Part shown: positions 3,660 through 22,493 of the stretch, piece after piece
Position numbering within the stretch: the first letter of the stretch is position 1
How the letters are laid out: each line of letters starts with the position of its first letter
IMG/VR virus record: IMGVR_UViG_3300044638_002512
Coordinates: 1-23,038 of that record
Reading direction: 5' to 3' (one strand)
DNA length: 23,038 bases
Source of the DNA: a virus
Made by a program: the position numbers and the translations under genes
Notes under the pieces: generated by a model
What the model saw: the letters and a program-made list of their open reading frames with translations, nothing else
The model's database searches: none
Told to the model about the DNA's origin: nothing

Positions 3660-4694
3660 TCAGTCAGAGTTCGCGTCCGCGATGTAGAGAGCCGAGAGCG
3701 GAGCCGTCAAAACGGTCGCGCTGTTGTCGGTCACGCTACCGCGAACGCGGCGGTTCCACGGATCGTCAAGAGTCTCGACGGTCATGTCCTCATAGGCGAA
3801 GATGGTTGCGCTGCTGAAGGACGGGCCCTCATTGCCAACCAGACCGCCGGGACGGCTCACGAACACCATTCCGGGCGCGCTCTCCGTACCGTAGAAGAAC
3901 CCACGAGTGTTCGCGCCGCCCTTACGGGTGGACACTCGCACCGTGTCATCAACCACCACGCCGCCCAGACCGAAGAGGGTCTGCGGGAGGCCGTAGGCCG
4001 CGAAGGTATCGTCGCCCTTCAAGAACGACAGAGCGGCGGGGTAGTTCTTGACGTAATCACGGACGCCATCGTTGGTCGCCATGATGCGAGCAGTCGTTGG
4101 ATTCACCACCAGCAGAATGTCCTTCGCAGACACAGCGCCAACCGTGTTCTGAACGATCTTTTCGATCGCTGCACGAATGATCTTCTGCACACCATCAGCG
4201 CTGGTGATGTTGGTGCCACTGACCAGATCGCTTGCCTTCGCGAAGTAGTTCGATCCGGTGGTGTAGTTGCCCGCGGTGGTCAACTGCGTAGCCATGCGGA
4301 ACGAACGGTGCGTCATCATCTTCGCAGCCGCAATGCGAGCGTGGCTAGCCACGACATCCCACTGCGCCTGACGAGCAGTCTCCTGCGGGATGTGGAACGA
4401 CGACTGGAAGCGCTGGCAGGTGAACTGCAGCCAGTCAATGTCGCTGTTGATGCCCGTGGGACGATCCTCGCCGAGAGGCCACTGGTAGTCCTGCGTGTTG
4501 ACCACGCGGGCAGTCTCCTCCTCGTCGATGCGAAGGTAATAGCCGCTCATCTGCTGCACGGGCACGATCTGCGCGTACTGCGTGATGGGGAAACGATTGA
4601 CGGCGCGGGTGAACTCAATCTGAATCTGACCCGTTGCCGCCGAGAAAGTTGGGATGAAGGTATTCAGCCCACCGCCAATTCCGACTTCAGCCAT
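3660..4694 (-). CDS. Major capsid protein
   Basis: A 344-aa protein with a good SD (AAGGAG) before its ATG. Its position after protease/scaffold and decoration protein, its length and its composition fit an HK97-fold capsid subunit. Readable features are an N-arm, a strand-rich region with IDEEETARVVNTQDYQWPLG, a helical spine (ARIAAAKMMTHRSFRMATQL), a segment with AKDILLVVNPTTARIM and DYVKNYPAALSFLK, and a P-domain-like strand with LFGLGGVVVDDTVRV. The first residues MAEVGIGGGLNTFIP repeat almost exactly a peptide inside the upstream protease/scaffold protein (residues 182-193 there). The shared peptide may mark the capsid delta domain or a scaffold contact. No coding damage is seen. Confidence 0.88.
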   Translation of the reverse strand: MAEVGIGGGLNTFIPTFSAATGQIQIEFTRAVNRFPITQYAQIVPVQQMSGYYLRIDEEETARVVNTQDYQWPLGEDRPTGINSDIDWLQFTCQRFQSSFHIPQETARQAQWDVVASHARIAAAKMMTHRSFRMATQLTTAGNYTTGSNYFAKASDLVSGTNITSADGVQKIIRAAIEKIVQNTVGAVSAKDILLVVNPTTARIMATNDGVRDYVKNYPAALSFLKGDDTFAAYGLPQTLFGLGGVVVDDTVRVSTRKGGANTRGFFYGTESAPGMVFVSRPGGLVGNEGPSFSSATIFAYEDMTVETLDDPWNRRVRGSVTDNSATVLTAPLSALYIADANSD

Positions 4695-5160: not shown

Positions 5161-5826
5161 TTAGGCCTTCTGGCCCGAATACTTGGCGAAAAGCGACTTG
5201 AACTTCGTCAGGTCGCCAGCGGCCTCATGCACCGCACGAGCGGTAGCGGCCTTGATGTCCATGCTCTCGTGAGCCTCGTCGGTGACGGTGTGCTGCGCAA
5301 CGGTCGGCACGTTGATGGGATTCTTCGCCATCGTCGCCTTCCAAAACGCCATCTTCGCGGTGGGGTTGGCCGTGTCGGCCAGTTCCTCAACCATGCTGTT
5401 GCGGAACTTGCCGCAGCGGTAGCCGTCGCGGATCATCGAATCGACCTCGCGACCGAAACGCTCAAGGCGCAACTGACGCTCAAGTTCCTGCACACGAGCG
5501 AACAGAGCCTTCTCGCTGGTCTTGCCCTTGCTCATCTTTGACTTTCCGCCGTAAGCGGCCTCCATCTCCTCGTCCTCCTCCTCCTCCTCCTCCTCGCCGG
5601 AGTGGGAGCCGATGTCCACGTGGACACCATCCTGCATCTCGTCCTTGTCCTCGGCGGCGTAGGCCATCTCGGCCTCGTCCTCGGCAGCAATCGCAGCCGC
5701 GTCAGCCTCCTCGGCCATCTTGTCCTCGTCCTCGTCAGCAGCGCACTCGTCTGCCGCAGCAGCCGCGAGAGCCTTCTTAGCCTCCTCGGCGTCCTGCTCC
5801 ATCTTCTTCTTCATCTTGCTTGGCAT
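5161..5826 (-). CDS. Possible separate scaffold protein from an internal start
   Basis: Inside the protease/scaffold frame, ATG at 5824-5826 (Met201) is preceded by AGGAAGAAAGCCC, a passable SD. It would give a 221-aa protein starting MPSKMKKKMEQDAEEAKK, which contains the whole acidic coiled-coil scaffold part and no protease. Nested scaffold genes of this type are known in lambda (Nu3 in C) and Mu (Z in I). The start could be used or not; the sequence only shows that it is possible. Confidence 0.4.
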   Translation of the reverse strand: MPSKMKKKMEQDAEEAKKALAAAAADECAADEDEDKMAEEADAAAIAAEDEAEMAYAAEDKDEMQDGVHVDIGSHSGEEEEEEEDEEMEAAYGGKSKMSKGKTSEKALFARVQELERQLRLERFGREVDSMIRDGYRCGKFRNSMVEELADTANPTAKMAFWKATMAKNPINVPTVAQHTVTDEAHESMDIKAATARAVHEAAGDLTKFKSLFAKYSGQKA

Positions 5827-6426
5827 GGGCTTTCTTCCTGTTCCTGACGGGATGAAGGTGTTGAGTCCACCTCCGACCCCCATTTCACCGAACTTTGCCT
5901 TGGAGTCAATAGAAACGCGCACAACTCCCATAGGCCGCTCGAAGACCACCTTCGAGCCGTGCTTACCGAATCGCGTGTCGGGCAGCGGCCTGCGCGGCGT
6001 ATCACGGCCAAGCAGAGCGACTTCCGACAGGTGATTATCCTTCCAAATCTCCGCGCTGCGACGGGGATAGGCGTTCGTCGCCAGCAGCGAGTCGAACGCT
6101 TCCTTCGGCATCTCGACATCGCCGACCACATAGGCCACGCCGTTGCGCTCCTCGTAGCGAACGCTGGTGATGTCGCCGACCGCCTCGGGCCGCGTGGGCT
6201 TGCCGTCCTTCTCGTGTTCGATGACGAGTTTGGGACGGGAGCCGCGCTGGATGAACTTGCCCGTGCGGGAAACGATGTCCTTCACGCGGGCGTTGTCATA
6301 GCCCTGCATGGCCTCGTCCTCGTCCGAGTCGATGGACGGATCGAAGCCCATGAACAGTTCAAGGTTGCGGATGCGAACCTTGCCTTCCTCGGTGTTCTCG
6401 ACAGTGTGGGAGGCTTGCATGGTCAC
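5161..6426 (-). CDS. Head maturation protease fused to scaffold (Mu gpI-like)
   Basis: The 421-aa protein begins with GTG at 6426, overlapping the previous stop (GTGA); an in-frame ATG at 6420 is an alternative. Residues 15-165 look like the gpI-type prohead protease: KLVIEH (H71 as likely catalytic His), a VGDI--VRYEE strand pair, then AYPRRSAEIW (S124 as candidate serine) and LSEVALLGRDTPRRPLPDTR. Residues 182-193 carry the GGGLNTFIP peptide shared with the capsid N-terminus. Residues 200-295 are a highly charged Ala/Glu/Asp helix with a run of glutamates near 279-284; residues 303-421 hold a coiled coil (VQELERQLRLERFGREVDSM) and a helical tail. Protease plus scaffold in one chain is known from Mu, where an internal start also gives scaffold alone. 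Confidence 0.8.
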   Translation of the reverse strand: MTMQASHTVENTEEGKVRIRNLELFMGFDPSIDSDEDEAMQGYDNARVKDIVSRTGKFIQRGSRPKLVIEHEKDGKPTRPEAVGDITSVRYEERNGVAYVVGDVEMPKEAFDSLLATNAYPRRSAEIWKDNHLSEVALLGRDTPRRPLPDTRFGKHGSKVVFERPMGVVRVSIDSKAKFGEMGVGGGLNTFIPSGTGRKPMPSKMKKKMEQDAEEAKKALAAAAADECAADEDEDKMAEEADAAAIAAEDEAEMAYAAEDKDEMQDGVHVDIGSHSGEEEEEEEDEEMEAAYGGKSKMSKGKTSEKALFARVQELERQLRLERFGREVDSMIRDGYRCGKFRNSMVEELADTANPTAKMAFWKATMAKNPINVPTVAQHTVTDEAHESMDIKAATARAVHEAAGDLTKFKSLFAKYSGQKA

Positions 6427-7007
6427 TTGCCGAAGTAGAAGCGATCCTCGACGGCCATCGTGTCCTTCTCGCCGGGGCGAGCGTTCTTGTCTCTGAACTT
6501 GCCGCCAGCCAACTTTAGGTTTGCAATCGCATTTTCAACTTCCGCATCCTTGAATCGTTCCGGATGAGTCATCATTTCATACACCACAAGCCAAGCGATT
6601 AGGTCGGCTTTCTTCGCCTTGTTGCCATACTTCAGCATTGCCTCTTGAAGCATTGTCGCGCTCGCATTGCTCAATGCCATCTTGTCCTTCGCGCCGGGGC
6701 GGGAGAACTTCTTTGCTTCTTCAGCAGCCCGTAAAAGCGAAGCAGGCATGATCTTTTGCACAGCAGGAGCCGAAGTGCGAACCTTTGCATACGCCCGATG
6801 CGCCTGACCAGACTTTGCCAAATCGGCAATTTCGGCGAGGTGCGCGGCAATGGAAGCGGCTTCCCATTCAGCGTTCATTCCATCTTCTGTGCGCTTTCCC
6901 TTCATGTCCTTTGACTTTTGCGTCCACTCCATTGCCAGACGGTTCAGCGCAGCAATGTCCTGCTGACTGAACGGCGGCTGCGCAAACTTTGTCTTCTCAC
7001 TTGCCAT
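6423..7007 (-). CDS. Modular head-region protein with RPG-type linkers (194 aa)
   Basis: A 194-aa basic, helical protein with an excellent SD (GGAGGTGA) and an 11-base overlap with the preceding gene. It reads as two helical modules separated by short linkers: residues 1-100 (starting MASEKTKFAQPPFSQQD), linker FSRPGAKDKMALSN at 101-114, a module with DLIAWLVVYEMMTHPERFKD up to 170, and a final ARPGEKDTMAVEDRFYFGK. The last eight residues EDRFYFGK match the N-terminus of the neighbouring 407-aa protein (EDKFYFGK). I recognise no enzymatic motif. Its place between MuF and the protease suggests an internal head or minor virion protein. The DNA is somewhat less GC-rich than the portal gene. Confidence 0.65.
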   Translation of the reverse strand: MASEKTKFAQPPFSQQDIAALNRLAMEWTQKSKDMKGKRTEDGMNAEWEAASIAAHLAEIADLAKSGQAHRAYAKVRTSAPAVQKIMPASLLRAAEEAKKFSRPGAKDKMALSNASATMLQEAMLKYGNKAKKADLIAWLVVYEMMTHPERFKDAEVENAIANLKLAGGKFRDKNARPGEKDTMAVEDRFYFGK

Positions 7008-8220
7008 TCTTCACCTCCACATTCCAATAGCGTCCGGTGGTAGCCACGGGACTGGTTGCGCTGTAGCCCTTCGACGCGACCCGCCGCCCGAAATCGCGGG
7101 CAAGGTCTGCGTCCTCAAACGAAATCACGAGCGTATCGCTGCCGACCTGCACGGCCCGCCATCCGCCGTCCGGCATCGCCTTCGCCGCGAGCAACTTGCC
7201 GAGCATGGGCGACTTGCTCGCCTCGGCAAACGCGCCGCGCTCAAGGCTGGATGCGTCGAAGGTGTCGGGCTGGCCGGGGCGGGCGAAGCCTTCCCGCATC
7301 AGATAATCCTCAATGTCACCGATAGCCCGGTTTCGCTCACTGACATTCTTGCTTGTGGATGCTGTGCGAATCGCCTTCTGCAAGCCTGCTCCAGCATTGC
7401 CGCCGATTGATTGCGCGGCCCGCATCATTTCCTGCGCGGCCTGCTTCCCTCTCGCAGTCCCAAACTCTTCGTAGAGAACTTGCACATACGCCGCAATGGT
7501 GTCCATGCCGGAAAACTTCTCCTCGCCACCCGCTGCGTTCTTCATCGGCACACAGTTCGGCACGGTCTTGCCGTCCTTCTGCTTCGTGCCGACAGGCTCG
7601 TAGCCCTCCCAACACGCGCCCTCCATGTCAAACCGCTCGGGCTGGCCGGGGCGGGAAGCCTTTAGCCCCTCTGCTGCGTAGGCAATAGCATCTCTCATCG
7701 ACGAGAACATTCGGTGGGTGTTGAACCCCGAAACGCCTTCGATGCTGGCAGTCCAGCCCCATCCTCCAAGGCGCGACCATCCCTTGTTCAAAACTCCGGA
7801 AACTGGCTTTCCGTTGATTGTTGCGGAAAAGTTTCGTTCGTCTTCATTGCTCCCCTTGCCAATCTTGATATCGGAAATCTTCGCAAATCGCTCGGGCTGG
7901 CCGGGGCGGGAATGCGCGTCCACGCGAACGTGCGATATTGCTCCAGAGGTCAAAACAACATACTTGCCACCCTGATAAATCCGCAGATCTCCCTTACTAT
8001 CTACCTTGAACAAGGGCGTGCCCGATGCCTTCCACTTTGCATAGTTCTTGGGCGTAATGACCGTGCTTTTCATCATGTTGGAGAGATACACCGTTTTCCC
8101 GGCTGCAAGTGCTGCTTCGATCTTGTTCAGCACCGTCTGACCAATCGATGCCTGCGATGATTCCTCAAACCGCTCGGGCTGGCCGGACTTGCCGAAGTAG
8201 AACTTGTCTTCTGTGTTCAT
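6997..8220 (-). CDS. Modular head-region protein with four RPGQPERF linkers (407 aa)
   Basis: Four copies of a linker divide this 407-aa protein into modules: SGQPERF at 12-18, SRPGQPERF at 104-112, SRPGQPERF at 189-197 and ARPGQPDTF at 313-321. Module A (19-103) has GKTVYLSNMMKSTVITPKNY; module B (113-188) is strand-rich with WSRLGGWGWTASIEGV; module C (198-312) begins ACWEGYEPVGTKQKDGKTVP and NCVP, a small motif seen in other phage head proteins, then a helical part; module D (322-407) is alpha/beta with GGWRAVQVGSDTLVISFED. The start ATG overlaps the MuF stop (ATGA). Catalytic motifs are not visible. A minor head or internal capsid role is inferred from position. Modules A and B have lower GC than C and D, which suggests they were acquired separately. 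Confidence 0.7.
   Translation of the reverse strand: MNTEDKFYFGKSGQPERFEESSQASIGQTVLNKIEAALAAGKTVYLSNMMKSTVITPKNYAKWKASGTPLFKVDSKGDLRIYQGGKYVVLTSGAISHVRVDAHSRPGQPERFAKISDIKIGKGSNEDERNFSATINGKPVSGVLNKGWSRLGGWGWTASIEGVSGFNTHRMFSSMRDAIAYAAEGLKASRPGQPERFDMEGACWEGYEPVGTKQKDGKTVPNCVPMKNAAGGEEKFSGMDTIAAYVQVLYEEFGTARGKQAAQEMMRAAQSIGGNAGAGLQKAIRTASTSKNVSERNRAIGDIEDYLMREGFARPGQPDTFDASSLERGAFAEASKSPMLGKLLAAKAMPDGGWRAVQVGSDTLVISFEDADLARDFGRRVASKGYSATSPVATTGRYWNVEVKNGK
7265..8186 (-). repeat. Dispersed direct repeat coding for the RPGQPERF linker
   Basis: A near-identical DNA block occurs at 7265-7283, 7633-7656 and 7889-7911, with a shorter version at 8171-8186. The plus-strand core is CTCGGGCTGGCCGGGGCGGG. 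Copies are 230 to 370 bases apart and always in the same reading frame. Related but diverged versions code for RPGAKDKM and RPGEKDTM in the next gene (near 6690 and 6470). Confidence 0.85.
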
Positions 8221-12679: not shown

Positions 12680-13076
12680 CCGTGCCGAGTCTACGGGCGA
12701 TGATGGCCCGCGCCCGCGCGGCTACCTCCGGGCTAATGACCACGCGCTCGGTGGCTTCTCCATCGTCCAGCCGCTCCATCTTGTCGAGTGCAATCGCTGC
12801 GTTGATCTTGTCCCGCGCCATCGCGGCCAGCACTTCGGCGGCTCGTAGGCGGTCGCGTGGCTGTGCTGCGTCGTTTGCAAGGATTCGGGCGCAGATACCC
12901 GGCGCGGCTCGCCAGACGGCTTCCGGTATCTCCCAGCCGTGGTTCACGGCCTTCTGCAACAGGCGCAGGGCCGACCGCTGCCGACTCTCCGGCTCATCCA
13001 GCACGGAAGGGGGCTGGTCTACCGGCGGCGGCTCAATCGGCTCGTTGGGCTTTGGTTTGGCCCGCTTTCTATCCAC
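12663..13076 (-). CDS. Terminase-adjacent protein, possible small terminase subunit
   Basis: This 137-aa protein starts with GTG at 13076 (AAGG 8 bases upstream), overlapping the methyltransferase end by 8 bases. The first 30 residues are Pro-rich and charged (KPKPNEPIEPPPVDQPPSV). The rest is helical: RSALRLLQKAVNHGWEIPEA, PRDRLRAAEVLAAMARDKIN and an ending with VVISPEVAARARAIIARRLG. It lies directly before terL, where small terminase genes usually are, but I see no clear DNA-binding helix-turn-helix and do not recognise the family. A packaging role is inferred from position only. Confidence 0.55.
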   Translation of the reverse strand: MDRKRAKPKPNEPIEPPPVDQPPSVLDEPESRQRSALRLLQKAVNHGWEIPEAVWRAAPGICARILANDAAQPRDRLRAAEVLAAMARDKINAAIALDKMERLDDGEATERVVISPEVAARARAIIARRLGTDETRS

Positions 13077-14241
13077 GCTGCGCCTTCTTGCCCGTTAGGG
13101 TTTCCCACCGCTTCACAATGACATCGCAGTAGGCGGGGCTGATCTCCATGCCGTAGCACTTGCGGCCAAGTTGCTCGGCGGCGATCAACGTCGTGCCCGA
13201 GCCAAGGAACGGATCGTAAGAAAGCCCTTGCGGAGCGGTGCTGTTTCCCATCAAGTATGCAAACATCGTCACGGGCTTCATGGTTGGATGTTCTTCGCTT
13301 CGACTTGGTCTATCGAATCGCAGAAGCGTTGTTTGCTTTCTATCGCTGTACCAACCGTGCGCGGCTCCATCTTTCCAGCCGTACAAACATGGCTCGTGCT
13401 GCCATTGGTAATCCTGTCGCCCCATCACCAGAACATCCTTTGTCCAAATCAAGCACTGCCTAACAGTCTGATCGCAGTCCTTGACCGCACCGCGAAAGTT
13501 GTATCCCTCGCTGTCGGCGTGGAAGATGTAGAAAGATGCACCGGGCTTCATCGCATCGAATGCTGCCTTGAAACAGGCAAACAGGAACTTTCTAAACTCC
13601 ACATCGCCCATGCTGTCGTTTGCAACTTTCAGCGCGTCTTTCGTCTTGCCCGTGTAATCGACGTTGTATGGCGGATCGGTCAGCATCAAATCGGCGCGCT
13701 GTCCGTTCATCAGCCTTTCAACATCCTCTCCCTTCGTGCTGTCTCCGCAGAGCAAGCGATGCTCGCCAAGCAGCCACAGGTCGCCCGGTTTCGTGATGGG
13801 ATCTACCGGAGCCTCCGGCACCTCGTCCTCCTGCACCTCGACCGTGGCTTCGGCCAGCGCAGCGATTTCCTTCTCGGTGAAGCCTGCCGCCCGCGCTAGT
13901 TCTTCGTCCTCGATCTGCAACGCGGCCAACTGCTGCGCGAGCGCGTCATCGTCCCACTCGGCCAGTTCCGCCGTACGGTTGTCGGCGATGGCGTAGGCGG
14001 TCGCCTCGCTGCCCTGCAACGCCGTGCGGACGATGTTGATGTGATCCCAACCCAAAGCCTTCGCGGCCATAACCGTGCCATTACCGGCGATGATGATGCC
14101 CTTGTCGTTGACCAGCACGGGCCGCTGCTGGCCGAACCGGGTCAGGCTCGCCTTGATCGCGTCAAGGTTGTTTGCGGGATGCCGCCGGACGTTGGCCGGG
14201 TCGAGCGTCAAGGTGTCGATCTTCACGCGCTGTGTTTGCAT
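13069..14241 (-). CDS. ParB-like domain / beta-class DNA methyltransferase fusion
   Basis: I take ATG at 14241, giving 390 aa; longer upstream reading lacks sense. Residues 1-95 are a ParB/sulfiredoxin-like domain (VRRHPANNLDAIKASLTRFG, VLVNDKGIIIAGNGTVMAA with the G-N-G patch, AYAIADNRTAEL). Residues 150-390 are an amino-methyltransferase: LLCGDST, catalytic DPPY at 189-192, then a region up to about 325, then SYDPFLGSGTTLIAAEQLGR with the AdoMet-binding FLGSGT and GMEISPAYCDVI. Motif IV before motif I makes it the beta class (N6-adenine or N4-cytosine). Such fusions are common in phages next to terminase and protect phage DNA from host restriction, or act in regulation. No restriction enzyme gene is nearby. 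The ATG lacks a good SD and sits behind a hairpin. The middle part has lower GC. Confidence 0.88.
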   Translation of the reverse strand: MQTQRVKIDTLTLDPANVRRHPANNLDAIKASLTRFGQQRPVLVNDKGIIIAGNGTVMAAKALGWDHINIVRTALQGSEATAYAIADNRTAELAEWDDDALAQQLAALQIEDEELARAAGFTEKEIAALAEATVEVQEDEVPEAPVDPITKPGDLWLLGEHRLLCGDSTKGEDVERLMNGQRADLMLTDPPYNVDYTGKTKDALKVANDSMGDVEFRKFLFACFKAAFDAMKPGASFYIFHADSEGYNFRGAVKDCDQTVRQCLIWTKDVLVMGRQDYQWQHEPCLYGWKDGAAHGWYSDRKQTTLLRFDRPSRSEEHPTMKPVTMFAYLMGNSTAPQGLSYDPFLGSGTTLIAAEQLGRKCYGMEISPAYCDVIVKRWETLTGKKAQRG

Positions 14242-14254
14242 GGCAGAAATGCTA

Positions 14255-14278
14255 CCGCCCCCACGGAAGCAGGGGCGG
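14255..14278 (-). promoter_or_regulatory. Hairpin in front of the methyltransferase start
   Basis: The minus strand holds a 7-bp perfect stem CCGCCCC / GGGGCGG with a 10-base loop, ending 13 bases before the ATG of the methyltransferase. The only purine-rich stretch that could serve as SD is inside the stem. It is the same stem sequence as in the leader of the ERF gene, with another loop. It could lower translation or act as a weak terminator behind the 45-aa gene; there is no U tract. Confidence 0.45.
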
Positions 14279-14302
14279 CGGCACCGAACAATCCTTTGTC
14301 CG

Positions 14303-14440
14303 TCAGTCCTTCTTACCGGGAATCCATCCGGCGATCTTCGACAGCGGGACGAGATGCCCGCCGATGTAGCCGATTGCAAAGGCGGCCACGGCTCCCCACA
14401 CACTTCCGATCAGACTCTCAATGCTCGCAAGCGTCATCAT
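14303..14440 (-). CDS. Small one-TM membrane peptide (45 aa), holin-like candidate
   Basis: A short gene, easily missed, with a strong SD (AAAGGAG) 8 to 9 bases before ATG ATG at 14435-14440. The 45-aa product begins MMTLASIESLIGSVWGAVAA. It has one hydrophobic segment at about 10-33 with several glycines, and ends with GWIPGKKD. It starts 2 bases after the lipoprotein gene. A short hydrophobic protein with a basic tail beside a possible spanin could be a holin or holin regulator, but no endolysin is recognisable in the window. The GWIP-K ending echoes GWIPKPK in the upstream lipoprotein. Confidence 0.7.
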   Translation of the reverse strand: MMTLASIESLIGSVWGAVAAFAIGYIGGHLVPLSKIAGWIPGKKD

Positions 14441-16048: not shown

Positions 16049-16356
16049 GTCTTTGCCTTGTGACGGGATGCTAGCGGCTTGCGCCGCCACCCCAAAGAGA
16101 AAAGGACACGCGCGATGTCGTGGGCCGTTTCGGTCACGGCCTCCTCGGAAAGCGAAGGGAGGCTCGCGTGTAGCACCTCGTGGATTGCGGTATCCAAGAG
16201 GTCGCGCTGGGGCAGGTTGCGGCGGATTCGGATTGTGGGGTGTCGCCCCGGCGGATGGTCGCAGTCCCCGAGCGCGTCGCGTGGCATCTCGCGGGCCGGG
16301 ACGAGGCGCACCCGCCACTTGCGGCCAGCGATGCTTACGCGGGCCTCATGTTGCAC
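16045..16356 (-). CDS. Small HExxH metalloprotein (putative zinc peptidase)
   Basis: The 103-aa frame starts with GTG at 16356 (GGAG 9 bases before it) and overlaps the phosphoesterase gene by 11 bases. Residues 52-63 read DLLDTAIHEVLH, giving the zinc-binding HExxH at 59-63; the following LPSLSEEAVTETAHDIARVL could supply a third ligand (E71, E72 or H79). The N-terminal part is a strand pair (RVSIAGRKWRVRLVP and HPTIRIRRNLP). Similar small HExxH proteins are frequent in phages and are usually annotated as hypothetical or zinc peptidase; their substrate is not known. An endolysin role is not supported, as no wall-binding or peptidoglycan peptidase pattern is seen. Confidence 0.68.
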   Translation of the reverse strand: MQHEARVSIAGRKWRVRLVPAREMPRDALGDCDHPPGRHPTIRIRRNLPQRDLLDTAIHEVLHASLPSLSEEAVTETAHDIARVLFSLGWRRKPLASRHKAKT

Positions 16357-17305
16357 GGGTCAACTCCGCAGCGAGTCGGTATTCCTTCTGCGTCCCCGCG
16401 ATATGGAGGCGCATCCAAACCGCGCCAAGCCCCTTTGGTGGCAATCCACGTTCCACGCTCCAGCCCGAATGGCCGTCGGCGTGCTCATCTTTGTAAGTAC
16501 CTAATCTGCAATGGATCTGCTCGTCTAGGACGATTTCCGCGTTCCCGAGAAACTGCCGCAGGCGTTCACGCGCGAGCGGCACGATCCAATGGTGGTGCGA
16601 ATGGCCTGATATGAGCAGGTCAGCGTCCGGGTAGATCGAAGCATCACGTCTGGTTGTCAAGACCCCGTGGGACATGAATGCTCCGCCACCGGAACCGTGG
16701 AAATAACGACAGCGGAACGAGAACGATCCGCCTTGTCGAGATACGAGCCGGAACAGAACGTAGCCGCCGTATCCGCCGGAGTAGACGGGACACGGCCCCG
16801 CCGCGCTCAAACCAGCACATACGCGCTCGGTGTAATCCACCTCGTGTCTTTTGAGGATGCTCTGTTCGTGATTGCCCCTTCCAATCGTCACGAAGCGATC
16901 CGCCCACGGGCTGTAGAACTTCACGGCCTCGCGCACCACCGCGTCGAGGTAGTCACCGCATTGGTATTCCTCGCGCAACGCCGAGCGGTCAGCCCGCAAA
17001 TCGAACTTTCCTTGCATTAGGCAGCCGTGGTCGCCTACGTCGATGCAGCCGCCTTTGCGCCGCTTCAACTCGTCTAGGTGCTTTCGCTCCAAGTCCCAGT
17101 CGGTGTGCGCGTTATCGTGATGTCGGTCGCTGGATAGCAGGCCCCACCATTCAAACTGGTGCGGTGTCTCGCACAGCATCGTCACGCGGTGAATGTTGCG
17201 GGACAGTTTCTCAACCGTCCATTGCGTACCCGGCGTGATGCCTTCGCGCCAATGGTGATTCTTCAACTCCTCGCGGATTCGGGCCTTGTCGCACTTACGC
17301 GCCAT
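16346..17305 (-). CDS. Metallophosphoesterase (calcineurin-like)
   Basis: This 319-aa protein has all the metal-binding motifs of the family in order: D60-R-H62 in LLSSDRHHDN, GD at 91-92 in IDVGDHGCLM, GNHE at 144-147, H203 in YFHGSGGG, and GHSHHH at 234-239. The enzyme hydrolyses phosphate esters with two metals. Family members in phages act on DNA ends, nucleotides or protein, so the substrate cannot be named. Next to a RusA-like resolvase, a role in DNA metabolism is plausible (inference). The usual first motif is D-x-H followed by a small or hydrophobic residue; the HHDN here is a variation. It overlaps the resolvase gene by 11 bases. Confidence 0.85.
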   Translation of the reverse strand: MARKCDKARIREELKNHHWREGITPGTQWTVEKLSRNIHRVTMLCETPHQFEWWGLLSSDRHHDNAHTDWDLERKHLDELKRRKGGCIDVGDHGCLMQGKFDLRADRSALREEYQCGDYLDAVVREAVKFYSPWADRFVTIGRGNHEQSILKRHEVDYTERVCAGLSAAGPCPVYSGGYGGYVLFRLVSRQGGSFSFRCRYFHGSGGGAFMSHGVLTTRRDASIYPDADLLISGHSHHHWIVPLARERLRQFLGNAEIVLDEQIHCRLGTYKDEHADGHSGWSVERGLPPKGLGAVWMRLHIAGTQKEYRLAAELTRAT

Positions 17306-17753
17306 TGTTTGCCTCGTATTTCTTCAGGTGTATTTCAACTCGCGGGTTCTTGCTATCCACGAGGATGACGAGCGGCAGGTGCGTGATTGCGTTGTCATCG
17401 TGAAGCAAGCCAGCGTCTACCAGCCCGTCGAAGGTCGCCTTCAGACTGGCTAGGCAATTGTCCTTGTCGCGTCGGCGCACGTCTCGCGCGTACCAATGCA
17501 CTTCGGCGGTCGCCTCTTTCCAGCCGCCCTTGACGTTGGCCTCGTACATGGAGACTTGTGCCGCTGCCCAAGCCTCTACGCGCGCCCGCTTCGTAGCCTT
17601 GGCTTTCACCGCCCAATGGCATCGCGCGTTCGGCGAGAGCGTTCGCGCGGGGATGCCGACGGTGACGGTAAGTACCTCGGGCATCAATGCATGATGCCAC
17701 GCGGTTATCCATCGGAGAAGGAGATCGGCCATCCTTGGCCTTTCGTCGCTCAT
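17295..17753 (-). CDS. rusA: RusA-like Holliday junction resolvase
   Basis: Residues 27-150 match the RusA family: a start strand LTVTVGIPARTLSPNARCHW, a basic helix (AVKAKATKRARVEAW), then RRRDKDNCLASLKATFDGLV with the metal-binding D96 and D98-N99, and DAGLLHDDNAITHL with D119/D120. RusA cuts four-way junctions at symmetric sites and in phages resolves recombination and packaging intermediates. It suits a phage with ERF annealing. The first 23 residues (MSDERPRMADLLLRWITAWH) look extra compared with the family; a start at Met24 (17684) or at Met8 with AAAGG upstream is possible. I keep the first ATG. Confidence 0.85.
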   Translation of the reverse strand: MSDERPRMADLLLRWITAWHHALMPEVLTVTVGIPARTLSPNARCHWAVKAKATKRARVEAWAAAQVSMYEANVKGGWKEATAEVHWYARDVRRRDKDNCLASLKATFDGLVDAGLLHDDNAITHLPLVILVDSKNPRVEIHLKKYEANNGA

Positions 17754-18853: not shown

Positions 18854-19305
18854 GCGAACACTCCTTTCATGTCCATTGCCGCCCACACGACGCCACGCGC
18901 GTATTCCGACCACTCCTCGACCTTGGCCGGTAGCGGCTCGGCTGTGAGCGCACCGATCTTCCGTGCGTAGGCGACGCCTACGGCGATCTCCTCGCGGGTA
19001 GCAAGAAGCAAGATACGCTTCATGTCCTCGCGGTCGCGCCTGACTTGTTCTTCGTTGATGCCCTCGTTGTCCGCCTTGGCTGCGATCTCGTTTCGTCGTC
19101 GGAGTCGCCGCACCTCGCCGACGATTTCCTCGACGGTGCATTGTGCGCGCGCGAGCGTTCGCCGCAGGCTCTTGACCGCTTGCGTCAAGTCTGTTTCGTT
19201 GTAGGGGGCGAGAGCCGCCATCGACTCCTCGTATTTCTTGCTAGACGGCTTTGCCCAAGTGCTGCTTGGGAAATGCTCTATGACGATCTGCGCTGCTGGT
19301 GTCAT
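18850..19305 (-). CDS. Hypothetical helical protein (151 aa)
   Basis: A 151-aa protein that begins inside the end of the DUF1376 gene (ATGA overlap) with a fine SD (GGAGG). The start (MTPAAQIVIEHFPSSTWAKP) is followed by a long helical region (SLRRTLARAQCTVEEIVGEV, RRLRRRNEIAAKADNEGINE, RDREDMKRILLLATREEIAV) and a C-terminal part with YARKIGALTAEPLPAKVEEW. I do not recognise the family. It belongs to the replication operon by spacing and may be an accessory protein of DNA metabolism. Confidence 0.62.
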   Translation of the reverse strand: MTPAAQIVIEHFPSSTWAKPSSKKYEESMAALAPYNETDLTQAVKSLRRTLARAQCTVEEIVGEVRRLRRRNEIAAKADNEGINEEQVRRDREDMKRILLLATREEIAVGVAYARKIGALTAEPLPAKVEEWSEYARGVVWAAMDMKGVFA

Positions 19306-20060
19306 CGTGCCTCCGGTACGGGGTCAAGGTATCGCTGCTGCGAAAGCCAAGTCGCTGGGTGCGGGATGTATTGCTGCTCTTTGTTGCGGTACTGTTCTGC
19401 CATCCGAGCGATGTGCTCTCGGAACACTTCGACGGCGGAATCCATCTCGGGCAATTCCCATTCGTCTGCGTAAGCCCGGATCGCTTGCTCCAGCAATTTC
19501 ATCGCGCGACCCTTGCCGACCTTCCTCGGAAACAGATTCCAAAGCCGCTCTAGCGCACCGTCTGGTATCGGCAACTTCCTCTTTCGATTATCAGACGCAG
19601 GCTCGGCAACGCCGAGCGAATGTGTTTGACCGCTCTCGCTCTCGTTCCCGATCTCGCTATCGGTATCGCTTTCGTTATCGTTATCGTTGGCATCGTTTCG
19701 CATTGCTCCCGCATTGCTCCCGCTATGCCACCGCATTGCCGCCGCATTGCGAGCCTGCTGCCGCTTCCGGTCGCCTGCCGCAAGGCTCCGGGATCGGATC
19801 TCCTCGCACCGGATGTTCCGTAGAAGCCCGTCCGGCCCCTGCGTGAACTTGCGCTTGATGCGATCCCAATGGGCCACCGTTCCGGGAGCGATCTCCTCTA
19901 GCACTTGCGGATCAGGGTTCAAGCCGCCGTTGCTGTATTGCTCACAGAGCAGGAACAAGTAAGCCATCGCGGCATCGGCGGGCCAGCCTCGCGTAGACCA
20001 CGCGAACCGCTGGTAGTAGAACGGCATGAAGCCCAGCGCACCTTCGGGTTGTAAACTCAT
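19302..20060 (-). CDS. DUF1376 replication protein (YdaU-like)
   Basis: Residues 8-90 match DUF1376: GFMPFYYQRFAWSTRGWPAD, a helix with AMAYLFLLCEQYSNGG, and LEEIAPGTVAHWDRIKRKF, a winged-helix-like part. A basic helix (DRKRQQARNAAAMRWHSGSN) and a tract of alternating acidic and polar residues (about 123-143) follow. The C-terminal part (ALERLWNLFPRKVGKGRAMK up to YIPHPATWLSQQRYL) resembles the end domain of phage replication proteins that load helicase. In YdaU/GpO-like genes the middle often holds the replication origin; this gene has five 11-bp repeats exactly there. The start overlaps the stop of a possible 28-aa ORF. Confidence 0.8.
   Translation of the reverse strand: MSLQPEGALGFMPFYYQRFAWSTRGWPADAAMAYLFLLCEQYSNGGLNPDPQVLEEIAPGTVAHWDRIKRKFTQGPDGLLRNIRCEEIRSRSLAAGDRKRQQARNAAAMRWHSGSNAGAMRNDANDNDNESDTDSEIGNESESGQTHSLGVAEPASDNRKRKLPIPDGALERLWNLFPRKVGKGRAMKLLEQAIRAYADEWELPEMDSAVEVFREHIARMAEQYRNKEQQYIPHPATWLSQQRYLDPVPEAR
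19631..19690. repeat. Tandem degenerate hexamer tract, 10 units
   Basis: Ten consecutive 6-base units of the form CGNNNN, e.g. CGCTCT, CGTTCC, CGCTAT, CGTTAT, read on the plus strand. In the DUF1376 frame each unit codes for an acidic and a polar residue (such as Asp-Asn, Glu-Ser), giving a low-complexity tract. Units become richer in A and T towards the iterons. Units vary at the last four positions but keep CG. Confidence 0.7.
19700..19754. repeat. Five 11-bp iterons, candidate replication origin
   Basis: Five contiguous direct repeats read on the plus strand as GCATTGCTCCC, the same again, GCTATGCCACC, GCATTGCCGCC and GCATTGCGAGC. The period of 11 is not a multiple of three, so coding pressure alone does not explain it. 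It lies in the middle of the replication protein gene next to a more AT-rich tract (about 19655-19699). This is the arrangement of lambda ori inside gene O. Binding of the DUF1376 protein is inference. Confidence 0.6.
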
Positions 20061-20467: not shown

Positions 20468-20983
20468 TCAACTCACTTTCAGGTAGGGCTGCTTCGGAAC
20501 AAGGTACGCGAACGGCAGCGTTTGGCCGGACTCCAGCGCGGCCCGGATCGCGTCCTTGTCGGGGGTGATCTTGATCTCCTCGCGCGTGAACTCCGGCGGG
20601 ACATCGCCGACGATCTCCATGCTCGGCTTGCCACCCGGCATCGCAGCCGTCGCCCGCCAGCGCGGCGACTCGACCTTCTTCATGCCCTGCGCCTGCATCG
20701 CGCGAAGCACCTGAACCTTGAACCATTCGGCCACCGCCTCGTCGCGCTTGGCGCGGGCCTTCAGCCTGTCGGCCTCTGCCTTGCGAGCCGCCGCGCGGTG
20801 TTCGATCTCCGCGACGAGCGACAGCACATCGTCGATGGCTGCGGGCAGATTCTCCGCCTGCTGCGCGAGGATGTCGAAATGGCCCTCCATCTCGGCGGTA
20901 AGTTCGCCCTCGCTCTCGGTGAGCATGGTTTCTAGTTCGCGGGCCGCGTTGCTTGTCTCGTACAGTCGTTGAATTGCGCTCAT
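20468..20983 (-). CDS. Gp157-like protein (siphovirus Gp157 family)
   Basis: The 171-aa protein has the typical Gp157 layout: N-terminal helices (MSAIQRLYETSNAARELETM, LTAEMEGHFDILAQQAENLP), a coiled-coil section rich in Ala, Lys and Glu (IEHRAAARKAEADRLKARAK), and a C-terminal strand part with KKVESPRWRATAAMPGG, PEFTREEIKITPDKDAIRAA and LPFAYLVPKQPYLKVS. Family members were described in Streptococcus phages in connection with resistance to superinfection, and they often stand beside single-strand annealing proteins, as here. An AGGAGAAGG SD precedes ATG. The hairpin-bearing leader is the same type as that of the ERF gene. Confidence 0.8.
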   Translation of the reverse strand: MSAIQRLYETSNAARELETMLTESEGELTAEMEGHFDILAQQAENLPAAIDDVLSLVAEIEHRAAARKAEADRLKARAKRDEAVAEWFKVQVLRAMQAQGMKKVESPRWRATAAMPGGKPSMEIVGDVPPEFTREEIKITPDKDAIRAALESGQTLPFAYLVPKQPYLKVS

Positions 20984-21500: not shown

Positions 21501-21552
21501 AACCCCTAGCCGGGGAGGGACTTGCGTCAACCTCCCCGGCCTTCCGGGGGTT
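21501..21552 (-). terminator. Large hairpin behind the ERF gene
   Basis: A 10-bp perfect stem (GCCGGGGAGG 21509-21518 with CCTCCCCGGC 21531-21540) with 12-base loop is enclosed by another 6-bp stem (AACCCC / GGGGTT, 21501-21506 with 21547-21552) that reaches the ERF stop codon. It separates the ERF gene from the next promoter. There is no U tract, so it may be a rho-independent terminator of weak type, a barrier to 3' decay, or both. Confidence 0.55.
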
Positions 21553-22493
21553 TAGAACGGGATCTCGTCTTCGACAGCCCCGACCACAGCCGCCGCTGGC
21601 TGCTCGGATGCTACCGCAGTCCGCAGGCCGTAGAGCGTCCAGCCGTATTGGCCTTCCTGCACGAACGCCTCGACCGTATCGCCGCCCATCGCGTCTTGCG
21701 CGGCCTGCATCAACGCCTGATCGAAGCACGAGCACCATTGCTCGCCGTTGCCCGTGTCGAACAGGATCGGCCAGCGGTTCCCGCCCTTGGCCGTGGGCTT
21801 GCCCTGCCCGACCTTGACCACCTTCAATCCCTGTCGCCAAGTGCAGTCCTTCGCGGGTCGCGAGGCCATTACCTCGCCAAACGCGCTAGGGGCCGTTGTG
21901 GCGGGTTCCTGCGCCTTGGCCGGGGTCGGGGCAGCCTGCGGGGCCGGAATCGAACGTGGGGCATCCTGCGCGGTCTGTCGGGATACCGGAGCGTTTCCGC
22001 TAGAGTTGCCCGCAGGTGTAGCGGAATTGCTCCGCGCCGGGGCCGGGGCTGCCTTGCGAGGCTGATACTTGGAATCGTCCTGCCGATCCATTTCGTTCTC
22101 GTCTTCGCGCGGAACGAGGAGCAAATCCCGGAGGTAGTAGCCCATCGAAGCCGTGAGTGCGCCAGCCATCGCCTTATCAATCGGCTGCTGGCCGCGCGGA
22201 ACGGCCACCCACGCCACCTCATCGGTGACGCTCTCTCCGCTACCCGCGTGGGTAAGGATGAACTGGCTCGTGACCAGCCCGCCGCCCTCCGGCGTTCCAT
22301 CGAACTTCCAGCCCGCGCGGCGCAAAGTCAACCCGGCTCCGTGCAGAACTTCGCGGCAGGCCGCGATCATCGTTTCGCTGCTCGTGTATGCGTACCCGTA
22401 GGTGCCGCCCTTGAACTGACTGTCCTTCCCGACGCTCGGGAGGGCGCGTTGCGCCGCCAGCAGGGCGGTCGCCAAAGTCTCGGTCTTGCTCAT
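21552..22493 (-). CDS. erf: ERF-family ssDNA annealing protein with OB-like domain and SSB-like tail
   Basis: ATG at 22493 with a strong SD (AGGAGA) gives 313 aa; the longer frame upstream is a shadow. Residues 1-135 match the ERF annealase family: MSKTETLATALLAAQRALPS, FKGGTYGYAYTSSETMIAAC, a strand region with LTLRRAGWKFDG, then AVPRGQQPIDKAMAGALTAS and MGYYLRDLLLVPREDENEMD. ERF proteins anneal complementary single strands in phage recombination. Residues 140-205 are a Pro/Ala/Ser linker. Residues 217-295 look like an OB-fold (QGLKVVKVGQGKP, NRWPILFDTGNGEQWCSCFD, VEAFVQEGQYGWTLYGLR). The chain ends EDEIPF, as bacterial SSB proteins do (DDDIPF), a known docking tail for recombination proteins. 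No separate SSB gene is in the window. Confidence 0.85.
   Translation of the reverse strand: MSKTETLATALLAAQRALPSVGKDSQFKGGTYGYAYTSSETMIAACREVLHGAGLTLRRAGWKFDGTPEGGGLVTSQFILTHAGSGESVTDEVAWVAVPRGQQPIDKAMAGALTASMGYYLRDLLLVPREDENEMDRQDDSKYQPRKAAPAPARSNSATPAGNSSGNAPVSRQTAQDAPRSIPAPQAAPTPAKAQEPATTAPSAFGEVMASRPAKDCTWRQGLKVVKVGQGKPTAKGGNRWPILFDTGNGEQWCSCFDQALMQAAQDAMGGDTVEAFVQEGQYGWTLYGLRTAVASEQPAAAVVGAVEDEIPF

Follow-up and report, generated by a model that had tools for sequence, protein, structure and literature searches.

How well an annealase performs in different species is believed to hinge on a match with the SSB of the host, which limits recombineering tools. Phage T7 gp2.5 adopts an OB fold and carries an acidic C-terminal tail whose last residue is Phe. 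In almost 80% of the Firmicutes phages that carry erf, this gene adjoins ssb (PMC8093625). In the tip of the E. coli SSB, the Phe sits deep in a hydrophobic pocket of the partner protein and the carboxylate is gripped by a basic lip; removal of the Phe, or replacement of the Pro by Ser, breaks or weakens partner binding, and an SSB linker of 11-20 residues is a sufficient minimum (PMC10164576). The tip of the HK620 SSB, NDYPPF, is required for the stimulation of annealing (PMC5928155). The C-terminal domain of Redbeta is a three-helix bundle that binds the host SSB, and loss of this contact abolishes recombination in vivo; the same domain binds the phage exonuclease (PMC8303780).

ERF proteins, OB folds and SSB tips are each known. 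Their fusion, which we describe here in the window (i.e., the whole stretch of 23,038 nucleotides of viral DNA that was analysed) and whose OB domain and tip are common to two annealase families, appears to be new. A search of the open literature, with many subscription papers outside its scope, found no description of an ERF or RecT protein with a fused OB domain and an SSB tip.

Results

Domain architecture of the window protein

The initial annotation had placed an ERF annealase at 21552-22493, and its coordinates, reading frame and domain were all borne out (Table 1). The position of the start codon agrees with that in relatives L002, L005-L009 and L011-L014. Residues 8-149 match Pfam PF04404 with 29.7 bits (cut-off 25), and the product matches PHROG 155 with an E-value of 1.2e-10. 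ERF is the only annealase-head family that the protein matches; the RecT/Redbeta profile (PF03837) does not recognize it. Foldseek matches of this region to Rad52 are weak (E about 0.03), and the AlphaFold model of the N-terminal part is of low confidence.

Table 1. Coordinates of the annealase gene, its parts and the neighbouring genes in the window.
Feature	Position	Strand	Evidence
erf gene, 313 aa	21552..22493	-	ATG start, TAA stop, protein end ...VGAVEDEIPF
ERF annealase domain, residues 8-149	22047..22472	-	PF04404, PHROG 155, weak Rad52 structural matches
Disordered Pro/Ala-rich linker, residues 150-204	21882..22046	-	pLDDT
OB-fold domain, residues 205-293 (predicted)	21615..21881	-	pLDDT, OB topology, Foldseek
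Variable flexible spacer, residues 294-307	21573..21614	-	47% pairwise amino-acid differences, low pLDDT
SSB-type tip EDEIPF, residues 308-313, I-P-F invariant	21555..21572	-	Alignment, conservation, profile comparison
Gp157/Gam-like gene, downstream of erf	20468..20983	-	PF05565 96.8 bits
Replication initiation/primosomal protein, same module	19302..20060	-	PHROG 9327 E 1e-13
RusA-like Holliday junction resolvase, same module	17295..17753	-	PHROG 34 E 2e-21
Predicted metallophosphatase/DNA repair exonuclease	16346..17305	-	PHROG 7339 E 2e-6

In the AlphaFold model, pLDDT stays below 50 across residues 122-203, in agreement with the disordered Pro/Ala linker that had been proposed. The structure prediction also recovered the proposed OB-like C-terminal domain: residues 218-293 form an OB barrel, in the order strand-strand-strand-helix-strand-strand, with a pLDDT of about 90. 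When predicted alone, with 21 aligned copies, the C-terminal domain reaches a mean pLDDT of 81. Its top structural neighbours in the PDB, as identified with Foldseek, are OB folds that bind single-stranded DNA, namely human SSB1, the Rpa1 OB domain, HIN domains, RecG, PriB and bacterial SSBs. Because these matches have E-values of about 1e-3 and TM-scores of about 0.5, they assign the domain to a fold, not to a family. A viral structure library returned general OB and SSB matches only.

Sequence searches with the C-terminal domain in Pfam, PHROGs, NCBIfam, the PDB and phage records gave no usable match, and the SSB profile PF00436 matches nothing in the window record. Against a profile built from SSBs of phages and bacteria, the profile of the domain aligned over its final 11 residues only, and weakly, at 12% probability. 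The resemblance to SSB thus lies in the tip, the barrel sequence having no detectable SSB homology. A broader scan of viral sequences, made with a profile of greater divergence, added one fragment (L097) and otherwise returned phages already found. As read from sequence and predicted structure, the window protein is an ERF annealase domain followed by a disordered Pro/Ala linker, an OB barrel and a disordered EDEIPF tail.

Conservation of the C-terminal tip

Residues 295-313 are predicted by AlphaFold to be disordered (pLDDT < 50), and the chain ends in Pro-Phe after hydrophobic and acidic residues; both are features of SSB C-termini. The I, P and F of the window tip are those that end the tip of E. 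coli SSB, and the spacer of about 15 residues fits the minimum linker length reported for SSB (PMC10164576).

That the terminal EDEIPF copies the SSB tail, as the initial annotation had it, was upheld by the alignment: the I-P-F ending is found in every one of the 21 C-terminal domains in the alignment, which are 44-95% identical to the window copy. A further relative (L016/L037) was excluded, since its annealase gene carries many frameshifts and is apparently of low sequence quality. Among 19 dereplicated sequences (171 pairs), I-P-F never differs in amino acid, and its synonymous codon differences amount to 25%, with variation in the Ile and Pro codons, whereas 47% of the pairwise comparisons in the spacer (residues 294-307) differ in amino acid. 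Invariant positions number five among the 20 of the tail; the probability that they would cover the last three by chance is about 0.009. Acidic residues are mostly kept, yet they vary beside the I-P-F, as in QHIPF, DHIPF and DGIPF. Ser296 and Val304 are also invariant.

We also took a census of PF endings among six-frame ORFs of at least 60 amino acids from the window and from eight records of related phages. Of 1,710 ORFs, nine have PF as their last two residues, and these nine are the annealases.

The same C-terminal module on a RecT head

When viral contigs were searched with just the C-terminal domain, four phages (L061, L068, L069 and L070) emerged in which the same half of the linker, the OB domain and the IPF tip are joined to a RecT/Redbeta head. 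PF03837 is present in all four, with scores of 109 bits in L061 and 97 bits in L068; none of the 13 ERF-headed records tested contains a RecT gene. Identity between the C-terminal domains of the RecT-headed proteins and those of ERF-headed L029, L011 and L007 reaches 87%, and in the tree these four proteins group as a single clade (100/98) within a mixed clade of eight ERF-headed and the four RecT-headed proteins (95/98). DNA homology between the two versions begins in the linker, at about residue 167 of L007, with the breakpoint at L080:3010 and L007:4502. The simplest reading of these sequences is that a RecT head took the place of an ERF head in a single event, with the linker, OB domain and tip retained. 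Since the module is found on a RecT head nested among ERF-headed relatives, it would work independently of the head, and the tail is probably a functional unit in its own right.

The replication genes that flank the annealase (Gp157-like, replication initiator and others) have a gene order common to ERF- and RecT-headed phages. Two RecT-headed phages carry the Gp157/Gam-like gene in the same position, with 65-68% identity, and the replication initiation/primosomal gene is also found in two. In the RecT-headed L080, the RusA-like resolvase is 75% identical and the metallophosphatase/DNA repair exonuclease 73% identical; the latter is a possible partner nuclease of the annealase. No gene of the SSB family PF00436 was found in the ERF- and RecT-headed records covered by the search, many of which span 31-40 kb; should some of these contigs be incomplete, as they may be, an SSB gene could have escaped detection. 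DUF669 and PF10991 were found in none of 18 records searched, in a test whose positive controls were weak.

Tips and ssb genes in other ERF and RecT elements

A PF tip is present in none of 25 other ERF proteins, 23 of them encoded by phages or plasmids with a wide variety of hosts, plus L033 and L074. In six of these cases ssb lies directly beside erf, and the encoded SSBs end in DDDLPF, DDELPF, DDDIPF, EDLPF, DDLPF and EDIPF. ERF or RecT proteins with no tip, accompanied by a nearby ssb that encodes one, occur in elements of Brevibacillus, Paenibacillus, Yersinia, Staphylococcus and Arsenophonus and in cyanophage S-H1. The RecT proteins nearest to the swapped head, from cyanophages Mae-JY09 and S-H1, both lack the tip, and the nearby SSB of S-H1 ends in EDVPF.

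An ERF from outside the family, in a Nitrospirota genome (L073, 1126-1983, minus strand), ends in EEKDDLPF. Because this ending stands on a different C-terminal region, ERF tips probably arose more than once, with L073 as an apparent independent gain. When viral contigs were searched with this ERF, no relatives were found. Nitrospiraceae was considered as the host on the basis of L038 and rejected, this relative lying on a contig of 3.9 kb that may be mis-binned; the SSB of the bin that contains it (L039, 1492-1899) ends in EVEEQG, with no IPF tip.

Other features of the window

Beside a minor head gene (6997-8220 and 6423-7007, both on the minus strand), short modules that are unrelated to one another are separated by a recurring peptide, SRPGQPERF/ARPGQPDTF, and the related phages L040, L047 and L049 have this peptide with other modules around it. 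The recurrence suggests processing sites or module shuffling. The predicted major head protein begins with the motif G[VI]GGGLNTFIP, which is repeated inside the neighbouring ORF (3660-4694 and 5161-6426, minus strand); both copies are conserved in relatives, and the neighbouring ORF is perhaps a protease/scaffold. A DNA methyltransferase with a fused ParB-like domain (13069-14403, minus strand) adjoins the terminase genes.

Discussion

We propose that in the window protein an annealase carries an SSB-like module in cis, which combines an OB domain with a bait for host SSB-interacting proteins. The conservation of the tip and its match to the end of the E. coli tip, the length of the spacer, the predicted OB fold, the occurrence of the module on a RecT head, the failure to find ssb in the phage records searched, the tips on adjacent ssb products elsewhere and the precedent of HK620 favour this reading, to which, judging from sequence and predicted structure, we give somewhat better than even chances. 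Against it stand the lack of detectable sequence homology between the OB domain and SSB, the variable acidic residues beside I-P-F and the tipless SSB of the Nitrospiraceae bin, the one cellular bin with a relative. By analogy with its family, the ERF domain would assemble into a Rad52-type oligomer, by which complementary single strands are annealed. The OB domain, on its flexible linker, would provide a second surface for single-stranded DNA in each subunit; its fold is predicted, and it probably binds DNA. The free, disordered EDEIPF would dock in the hydrophobic pocket and basic lip of host proteins that bind the SSB tip, with RecO, PriA, RecG, RecQ and exonuclease I as candidate partners. 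Since the window protein presents the tip itself, it would dock on the partners of SSB, not on SSB. With many tips per ring, host replication-restart and repair proteins would be brought to the phage DNA under annealing. That is, a two-gene cassette of erf and ssb may have been condensed into one polypeptide, in phages whose records hold no SSB gene.

The initial annotation had gone on from the copied SSB tail, which stands, to suggest that it recruits host repair proteins or replaces SSB; from the sequences, with the module kept in the head swap and ssb not found, this is the best available reading. That a built-in tail widens the host range is speculation, and the premise behind it has to be reversed: it is Redbeta that contacts the host SSB, through a helical domain, while the window protein offers a tip of its own. 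A broader claim, on which we are tentative and inclined to doubt, is that linker, OB domain and tip constitute a portable SSB mimic, used on ERF or RecT with a polarity opposite to that of annealases that bind the tip of the host SSB, and makes the annealase independent of a cognate SSB.

An alternative that we consider unlikely is that the tip folds back on its own OB groove or on the annealase ring, and is displaced by single-stranded DNA, so as to regulate loading. T7 gp2.5, T4 gp32 and E. coli SSB have acidic tails for which such a role has been proposed. The SSB tip does interact with the OB domain of SSB itself (PMC10164576), and a mobile acidic tail beside an OB domain, the two always occurring together, fits this scheme. 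Autoinhibition by charge, however, would preserve acidity above I-P-F, and it is the acidic positions that vary while I-P-F does not; self-folding and partner docking can, moreover, coexist, as they do in SSB. Less probable still is docking of the tip on a partner encoded in the phage module (the Gp157/Gam-like protein, RusA, the metallophosphatase or the replication initiator) and not on host proteins. The same downstream genes do accompany ERF- and RecT-headed versions, and the Redbeta C-terminal domain binds the exonuclease of its own phage (PMC8303780), but the sequence gives no need for an SSB-type tip in such an interaction, and the tip matches the host code.

That code, and the many tips that ring-shaped annealases would display together, would also be consistent with a decoy that titrates or blocks the SSB-dependent ExoI, RecJ and RecQ of the host, protecting the single strands of the phage; we regard this as very improbable, as a decoy would not require an OB domain fused to the annealase at the annealing site. 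Finally, the copies are closely related (44-95% identity to the window copy in the domain), as would be the case if the IPF ending reflected chance or recent common ancestry and had no function, but we give this next to no credence given the zero changes at three adjacent positions versus 47% in the spacer, the lack of any other ORF ending in PF in the nine records, and the persistence of the tip through the head swap.

A natural module with its own predicted OB domain and tip, already exchanged between two annealase families, offers a direct test of the role of the tip at annealing sites. The OB-tip module may also serve as a tag for annealases in laboratory strains.

Comparison with known systems

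Bacterial SSB (PF00436) has an OB fold, a flexible linker and an amphipathic IPF tip, as does the window protein; the window OB domain, however, has no detectable sequence homology to that of SSB and is fused to an annealase. T7 gp2.5 and herpesvirus ICP8 combine single-stranded DNA binding and annealing in one polypeptide, as predicted here, but lack a separate ring domain of the ERF/RecT type, and differ in fold arrangement and ancestry. In phage HK620 an SSB-like tip, comparable to that of the window protein, stands on SSB-HK620; this SSB and Sak4 are, however, two separate proteins, and Sak4 is RecA-like, not ERF or RecT. ERF proteins of the P22 Erf type (PF04404) with an adjacent ssb resemble the window in the annealase domain, in the Gam/Gp157-type neighbour and in the presence of a tip within the cassette (PMC8093625). 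The cassettes known so far have the tip on an SSB of its own gene, whereas in the window, where ssb was not found, the OB domain and the tip are on the annealase. Lambda Redbeta/RecT, lastly, shares its RecT-family head with the four RecT-headed relatives, and likewise has a C-terminal domain for partner contacts. The polarity is nonetheless opposite: the C-terminal domain of Redbeta binds SSB, whereas the predicted OB domain of the window protein presents an SSB-like tip.
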